Source of the DNA: a halophilic archaeon SHRA6
GTDB lineage: Archaea > Halobacteriota > Halobacteria > Halobacteriales > Haloferacaceae
NCBI GenBank assembly: GCA_005239175.1
Contig: SOPS01000001.1
Location: 558,001 to 622,000, forward strand
Reading direction: 5' to 3'
DNA length: 64,000 bases
The position numbers and the translations under genes were made by a program. Each line of letters opens with the position of its first letter. Position 1 is the stretch's first letter. The notes beneath the pieces were generated by a model. The model did no database searches. It was not told where the DNA came from and saw only the letters and a list, made by a program, of their open reading frames with translations. Below are positions 27,622 to 28,026 of this stretch, piece by piece.

Positions 27622-27702
27622 GCCAGGATGGCCGAGTGGTAAGGCGCACGCCTGGAAAGCGTGTTCCCTCTGGGATCCAGGGTTCAAATCCCTGTCCTGG
27701 CG
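27622..27702 (+). tRNA. tRNA-Ser (GGA anticodon)
   Basis: A complete class II cloverleaf can be folded. Acceptor GCCAGGA pairs with TCCTGGC at 27695-27701, with G as discriminator. Anticodon stem CACGC/GCGTG encloses the loop CTGGAAA with anticodon GGA. A long variable arm (TCCC-TCT-GGGA) marks a serine tRNA. The T arm is CAGGG-TTCAAAT-CCCTG. CCA is not encoded. A run of five T follows at once, an archaeal terminator signal. The 3' end is part of a 68-bp direct repeat. Confidence 0.97.
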
Positions 27703-27942
27703 CTTTTTCCCGGATCAGCAACACCCAGCGACGCGTTTGATCGCGTCGTGAACACTGCTGATCCGTGAAGCGGTAACTGACAGGGATTTGAATCAGGGAG
27801 CGGTGCGTGGCGCGTAGCGCCACGCTAGCGAACGGGTGCTTCGCACCCGTGAGCGAACGAATGTGAGCGATCGTGGTTCAAATCCCTGTCCTGGCGCTTT
27901 CTTTCGGATCAGCAACACCCAGCGACGCGTTTGATCGCGTCG
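27681..27942. mobile_element. tRNA-tail duplication: attachment-site scar or miniature element
   Basis: The last 22 bases of tRNA-Ser and the next 46 bases (27681-27748) recur at 27875-27942 with three mismatches. Between them lie: an outer inverted repeat CGGATCAGC/GCTGATCCG (27711-27719 and 27757-27765) enclosing CGACGCG/CGCGTCG; an inverted copy of the T arm (27779-27794); and two perfect hairpins (GCGTGGCG/CGCCACGC, 27805-27825; ACGGGTGC/GCACCCGT, 27832-27850). Duplicated tRNA 3' ends are the hallmark of integrase attachment sites. No integrase gene is present, so this is either a deletion scar or a small non-coding element. It fills the 27703-28026 gap with no gene. Confidence 0.75.
27703..27710 (+). 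terminator. T-rich terminator after tRNA-Ser
   Basis: CTTTTTCC directly follows the discriminator base; runs of T are the usual archaeal intrinsic stop signal. Confidence 0.5.
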
Positions 27943-28026
27943 CACGAACAACACTGCGAGCACCGCCTTGCGTGCACACAATCCATTAAATCCTCACACC
28001 AGATATTCAAACCACAAACCAGACGA

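Follow-up and report, generated by a model that had tools for sequence, protein, structure and literature searches.

What is the repeat-rich block that follows the tRNA-Ser(GGA) gene of the halophilic archaeon SHRA6, and does it represent the trace of a lost element or a unit of its own? The block lies in a 64,000-nucleotide stretch of the genome (hereafter the window). A sequence-only reading of this DNA had described a tRNA-tail repeat of 68 bp, an inverted T-arm copy between both repeats, and nested inverted repeats with inner hairpins. All of these are present (Table 1). The first copy of the direct repeat recurs at 27875–27942 with 96% identity and a spacing of 194 bp, the inverted copy (T′) is complementary to 27874–27890 at 16 of 17 positions, HP1 is part of an inverted repeat (27707–27720/27756–27769), and the inner stems measure 9 and 8 bp. 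The inverted copy comprises more than a T-arm, since it spans 27756–27799 and reaches back through the trailer and the 3′ arm of HP1. As a consequence, the tRNA tail T and its inverse T′ alternate in the order T-HP1-T′-core-T. The unit of 194 bp is made of T, HP1, T′, a hairpin core, and a T copy.

Table 1. Features of the block behind tRNA-Ser(GGA), in window coordinates
Feature	Position	Strand	Remarks
tRNA-Ser(GGA), host of the array	27622–27703	+	ARAGORN and Rfam
Tail T of tRNA-Ser(GGA), from GTTC to the 3′ end; source of the copies	27682–27703	+	
68-bp direct repeat, copy 1: tRNA tail and 5′ part of HP1	27681–27748	+	
HP1	27711–27765	+	outer stem 27711–27720/27756–27765; inner stem 27729–27735/27742–27748
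T′, inverted T-arm copy, GACAGGGATTTGAATCA	27779–27795	-	
Core, type A ends CAGGGAGCG ... GAGCGATCGTG, with nested two-hairpin insert	27796–27874	+	
Nested hairpin 1: GCGTGGCGC-GTA-GCGCCACGC, 9-bp stem, GNA-type triloop	27805–27825	+	read directly
Nested hairpin 2: ACGGGTGC-TTC-GCACCCGT, 8-bp stem, GA...GA flanks	27832–27850	+	read directly
T copy GGTTCAAATCCCTGTCCTGGCGC, an exact match to the tRNA tail	27875–27897	+	
Terminal trailer, second HP1 5′ half TTTCTTTCGGATCAGCAACACCCAGCGACGCGTTTGATCGCGTCGC	27898–27948	+	

The block folds as a single long hairpin (-128.7 kcal/mol as RNA; z -7.6 against 200 dinucleotide shuffles), and HP2 of the unit reaches z -7.5 as DNA. No ORF of at least 80 aa lies inside the unit, and of the listed ORFs only one, starting at 27931, overlaps its region. 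From their translations, we take the upstream neighbors to be a RidA-like protein and a small membrane protein; the downstream neighbor is presumably a GNAT-type acetyltransferase. The two-hairpin module of the core (GTGGCGC-TAGCGCCAC plus CGGGTGCTTCGCACCCG; 27805–27850) also occurs at L008:2384–2430, in L080, and in L089, and sits in the core or in the HP1 loops of different tRNAs and genera as small hairpins nested in hairpin loops.

After confirming the architecture of the block, we turned to the question as to whether it is peculiar to this tRNA. With the block as query, the same layout was found in the window's genome behind tRNA-Leu(CAA), Gly(CCC), Lys(TTT), and Leu(TAA), with a copy of the respective tRNA tail in every case. 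Counted in the tRNA neighborhoods of each genome, 20 of 44 tRNAs in the window's genome are followed within 600 bp by one to three copies of their own tail. The corresponding figures are 19 of 43 in a second haloarchaeal family (G193) and 27 of 44 in a third (G213). In the control with tails of other isotypes, about one match is expected per genome. The copies are specific to their tRNA and lie downstream only: none was found upstream of tRNAs in the three haloarchaeal genomes, and none of the 23 tRNAs of a non-halobacterial relative (G298) has an own-tail copy. The spacers between T copies have a median length of 98 bp (5–95% range 63–179 bp; 90 units from the three genomes). We are confident that the window block is one unit of a class-wide haloarchaeal family of tRNA-tail cassettes. 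The possibility that it is an ordinary tRNA trailer without connection to other tRNAs is contradicted by a layout that recurs at about half of the tRNAs, each time with the respective tail, and by a number of units that varies between relatives.

The same family emerges from a search that does not start from tRNA genes. A core pattern with no tRNA-specific bases beyond GGTTCRA, scanned across 84,980 species, identified 96 stretches, and among the matches listed 80 of 80 are from Halobacteria. Units re-found in the listed stretches have a same-strand tRNA less than 1 kb upstream in 79 of 85 cases, covering 22 isoacceptor labels, and most of those behind tRNAs carry a perfect own tail. In a survey of Halobacteria, the core pattern was present in 86 of 116 genomes and 42 of 46 genera; in the rest of the phylum, it appeared in a handful of genomes at chance-like sites. 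Within the genomes sampled, the family is restricted to Halobacteria. No published description of it was found in the open-access literature.

Alignment of 66 first copies locates the boundary of the copied segment. Identity to the tRNA stays at the random level (about 0.26) until two bases before GTTC, jumps to 0.91–1.00 at GTTC, and amounts to 0.89–1.00 in the T-arm and 0.69–0.95 in the acceptor end, followed by decay past the tRNA end. Recombination at a specific site in the T-loop would leave just such a block, extending exactly from the T-loop to the 3′ end; tRNA loops as well as 3′ ends are known targets of archaeal integrases (PMC8371274). Furthermore, T evolves in concert with its own tRNA. 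For isoacceptors whose tails vary from genome to genome, the copy matches its own tRNA in 1251 informative comparisons and that of the other genome in 43, these comparisons being pairwise and hence non-independent. At the Leu(CAA) loci of 12 Halorubrum species, divergence is 0.000 in T, 0.200 in T′, and 0.238 in the following flank, where the pattern used to pick the loci holds GGTTCRA and some of the core constant and the comparison is unbiased only for the rest of T. The specificity of T′ for its own tRNA is weak beyond the universal T-loop (3.47 versus 2.80 of 7 pairs in an anchored test; 0 of 2000 permutations), and by ungapped complementarity own and other tRNAs are indistinguishable because the T-loop is common to all.

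Close relatives differ by complete units. A congener (G001; 900-bp match L183, Halalkalirubrum salinum) contains three cassettes with other HP1 sequences at tRNA-Ser(GGA), and this array ends in the terminal trailer also present in the window, including the array-terminal sequence GGATCAGCAACACCCAGCGAYGCG. In Halorubrum, the syntenic tRNA-Ser(UGA)-SOD locus of L175 includes an additional type-B cassette, and the other species shown are without it. Five core types (A–E) recur behind different isoacceptors and in different families, mosaic arrays mix these types (for example A, C, and D), and other arrays contain identical tandem copies (L211, G213 tRNA-Phe). Together, the T-bounded differences between relatives and the mosaic arrays indicate that whole units come and go precisely at the T boundaries. 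The Leu(CAA) cassettes persist across many Halorubrum species, and exchange therefore cannot be frequent everywhere.

Could such arrays arise by mutation, with no dedicated recombinase at all? At GNA mini-hairpins, the adjacent tRNA tail might be recopied by fold-back synthesis or by quasipalindrome correction, which would account for the alternating order T-X-T′-Y-T, for arms that are local copies around conserved loops, and for identical tandem copies where these occur. We consider this origin quite improbable, since palindrome correction should produce the reverse of the observed divergence, in which the direct T is conserved and the palindromic T′ drifts. Five core types conserved across loci and families also speak against it, and the fixed GTTC boundary demands sequence specificity.

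The sequence-only reading had considered the two tail copies as attL and attR left after the loss of an element. A related scenario sees the T copies as attR remnants of successive classical elements that had integrated at the tRNA 3′ end and were since deleted. This scenario draws on the identity block from T-loop to 3′ end, which is a classical att signature, and on the role of tRNA genes as the customary sites of integration in archaea (PMC8371274). It fails on compact units and on the absence of distant copies: the HP1-T′-core content is alike in 90 units from three genomes, and in 336 kb of sequence behind 86 tRNAs no T copy lies more than 1.5 kb downstream. We judge it very unlikely. The attL/attR interpretation is equally at odds with this lack of distant copies and, with a compact unit behind about half of the tRNAs in three families, is unsupported as a general account. 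Relatives with a multi-kilobase element between two T copies were likewise absent from the 336 kb sampled. Phage, plasmid, and viral records also speak against scars of such elements: the core pattern and the sequence of the window unit gave no match in plasmid and phage collections. Virus-borne units were considered separately and rejected, as none of 27 IMG/VR matches to the core pattern is followed by a tRNA tail.

One locus allows a direct comparison with what appears to be an integrated island (L174, Halorubrum sp. GN11_10-6_MGM; reverse orientation, about 0–5.86 kb, with the left end and the tRNA outside the locus). The island contains a 1119-aa ORF that, by its look, we take to be a protein with an HsdR-type N-terminus. 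It ends in a different and longer att, namely a tRNA-Gly(TCC) fragment that reaches the anticodon loop, and directly beyond stands an intact hairpin array. Because this array is intact, it seems to reside in the tRNA flank and to be spared by real elements. The same locus bears on the idea that the host retains T copies as decoys or landing pads, so that tRNA-targeting integrases take the copy and spare the tRNA. In favor of a decoy, the T copies hold the att block from T-loop to end nearly perfectly and are always found downstream. However, the apparent insertion in L174 used the tRNA itself, no element was found integrated at a T copy in the sampled downstream sequence, and the conservation of T′, HP1, and core would be left unexplained, all of which makes a decoy function highly improbable.

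Conserved hairpins are a further feature of the units. The loop motif CGAnCGnAGnGAG has 107 matches on the tRNA strand versus 13 on the other strand in 98 kb of downstream flank, compared with 7 upstream and 7 on both strands of 538 kb of more distant sequence; the flanks derive partly from loci selected by the core pattern, which inflates the density but not the pairing. The n-n pair of this motif is A-T in 47 cases, G-C in 42, C-G in 7, G-T in 7, and unpaired in 4. The pair is therefore standard in 103 of 107 motifs, and GNA is unconstrained at its central base. GNA and GNNA loops on G-C stems are known as exceptionally stable DNA mini-hairpins (PMC4686876). HP1 of the window has orthologues in other genera with compensatory changes. 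Between genera, HP1 stems covary, with 11 of 17 pairs altered on both sides and a covariation score of 0.349 versus 0.125 ± 0.022 for shuffled alignments, in an alignment of sequences picked out by eye. Folded as DNA, the tRNA strand is the better one in 68 of 90 units. Generic haloarchaeal intergenic hairpins were rejected as an identity for these structures: 13 of 27 loop-motif matches in the genome, as counted from match coordinates, lie just downstream of tRNAs, and a reversed-pattern control gave 8 matches.

These structures also form the basis of the strongest rival to cassette exchange, a structured RNA co-transcribed with the tRNA. Its hairpins (the T′/T stem followed by a T-run) would serve in termination, 3′ processing, or the production of small RNAs, and T copies would be kept to mimic or pair with the tRNA. 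The bias to the tRNA strand and the covarying stems are consistent with such an RNA, as is the tolerance of the loop motif for G-T (7) over A-C (1); strand-biased folding and G-T tolerance fit an RNA as well as they fit cassette exchange. T copies often precede a pyrimidine- or T-rich stretch, but units commonly start past a T-rich stretch right behind the tRNA that may already be a terminator. A GNA triloop with a free N is of the DNA mini-hairpin type (PMC4686876), about half of the tRNAs have no unit in genomes where the others do, and mosaic core types with exact gain and loss of units are unexpected for a dedicated RNA. Rfam at its gathering score returns tRNA alone in the window block. 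On balance, we regard an RNA function as the main explanation as unlikely.

The reading that we favor, though with somewhat less than even confidence, sees the units as non-autonomous cassettes. A tyrosine recombinase acting in trans would insert and exchange them at the T-loop, perhaps via folded single strands. We favor this reading because it would cover the boundary, the exact gain and loss, the constraint on T but not on T′, and the hairpin design together. A cassette measures 60–180 bp, is gene-less, and combines HP1, T′, and a structured core with a copy of the tRNA 3′ tail T. The candidate recombinase would excise and insert cassettes by crossing over at GTTC in the T-loop. The T′/T stem with its GNA-type loop may be the site contributed by the element, which would fold from the tRNA-sense single strand in the manner of integron attC and the folded CTXphi attP. 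Each exchange would trade the tRNA 3′ end for that of the cassette. If 3′ ends are swapped in this manner, both T copies must stay functional, and T would never decay while T′ and the flanks do. The mechanism would require that T′ and core match at least 20 different tRNAs. The weak tRNA specificity of T′, the persistent Leu(CAA) cassettes, and the phage, plasmid, and viral collections without a unit count against it, as does the fact that neither circles or free cassettes nor a transfer or an enzyme linked to them came to light.

Much of the other suggestion of the sequence-only reading, a small element without coding capacity that uses tRNA ends to move, is retained in this proposal: T-bounded gain and loss, the T-loop boundary, and mosaic arrays agree with it, and movement itself is the predicted part. 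Tyrosine recombinases are encoded in all three genomes examined. The 64-kb window is free of Phage_integrase domains, the nearest being located about 84 kb past its end on C1. A Halobacteria-specific Xer-like recombinase type, Arch1, has been described (PMC8138268).

Individual parts of the units are reminiscent of attC in integrons, of attP in CTXphi, and of att sites in tRNA genes. The core of integron attC, GTTRRRY, begins with GTT, as does the GTTC of tRNA-tail units. Integron attC is a hairpin folded from a single strand; its structure is conserved although its sequence varies, and one strand is preferred (PMC6393395). The tRNA-tail units likewise form arrays of short cassettes with gain and loss at a fixed boundary and a predicted folded palindromic site, the T′/T stem plus core, which agrees with attC at the level of structure (fold z about -7.5 for the window unit; 103 of 107 loop pairs standard). 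In contrast to integrons, there is no IntI in cis, no integrase gene stands beside the array, and the cassettes carry no genes. They anchor at the T-loop of a tRNA instead of attI, each with its own tRNA tail, and occur in archaea, where their recombination is so far a prediction from sequence. In IMEX phages such as CTXphi, the att site arises when two inverted recombination sites that flank a short hairpin pair with each other in single-stranded DNA, and host Xer recombinases are used. The likeness to our units lies in the inverted sites around a short hairpin; the units measure about 100 bp, contain no phage genes, and target tRNA instead of dif.

Small mobile or palindromic repeats offer another comparison. 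REP and BIME sequences are small non-coding palindromes in alternating orientation. PATE and SMR of Haloquadratum are small mobile haloarchaeal repeats (PMC3119063). Both groups share with tRNA-tail units the small non-coding palindromes but, unlike these, are not limited to tRNA 3′ flanks and have no locus-specific tRNA tails. Archaeal integrases of the SSV, pNOB8, pT26-2, and SNJ2 types use a tRNA 3′-end att block with a possible T-loop crossover (PMC8371274). This block is shared with the units, but the corresponding elements encode an integrase, span several kilobases, have att sites of variable length, and lack a conserved HP1-T′-core. Family 2 casposons insert at archaeal tRNA genes, recognize the T-loop/T-stem sequence TCAAATC, and generate a 14-bp target duplication that starts 8 bp past it (PMC6614799). 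Casposase-type insertion was rejected, since the duplicated block of the units starts at GTTC, before TCAAATC, and measures about 22 bp and more; the units also lack cas1-solo, PolB, and TIRs. As they lack testable defining features of the known families, we assign the tRNA-tail cassettes to none of them.

As a class-wide feature, the family looks like an undescribed recombination system that may parasitize or guard tRNA genes. A further-reaching version, which we find rather doubtful, is that Halobacteria possess an integron-like system in which every tRNA gene is a possible anchor, cassettes fold as tRNA-sense strands, a class-specific Xer-like recombinase acts on them, and exchange replaces the tRNA 3′ end. 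If true, haloarchaeal tRNA genes would be surrounded by a dynamic cassette system that affects about half of the tRNA set, archaea would gain an integron-like recombination system based on recognition of structure, and the reason why tRNA genes are integration hotspots would become directly testable. Such a cassette system would have escaped annotation because it contains no genes. Even with a mechanism based on RNA, structured elements that follow half of the tRNA genes across the class would be new biology.

Some annotation noise is explained by the same arrays. Spurious ORFs such as L008:2180–2722 and the like, with CEGRDLNPRT and GFEP motifs, are translated inverted tRNA tails and are prone to annotation as proteins. 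At L008:2550–2722 (G000:C2, about 151.55–151.72 kb), a pseudo-tRNA-Leu(CAA) with a perfect tail at its end lies downstream of the intact gene. Two hairpins of the GAGCGA type interrupt it close to the variable arm, and it represents a whole-tRNA duplicate within the array. In L174 and L180, a T copy is immediately followed by acceptor-end palindromes, GGCGCA-CTCACTTCGTTCG-TGCGCC, another copy type with a complementary loop.
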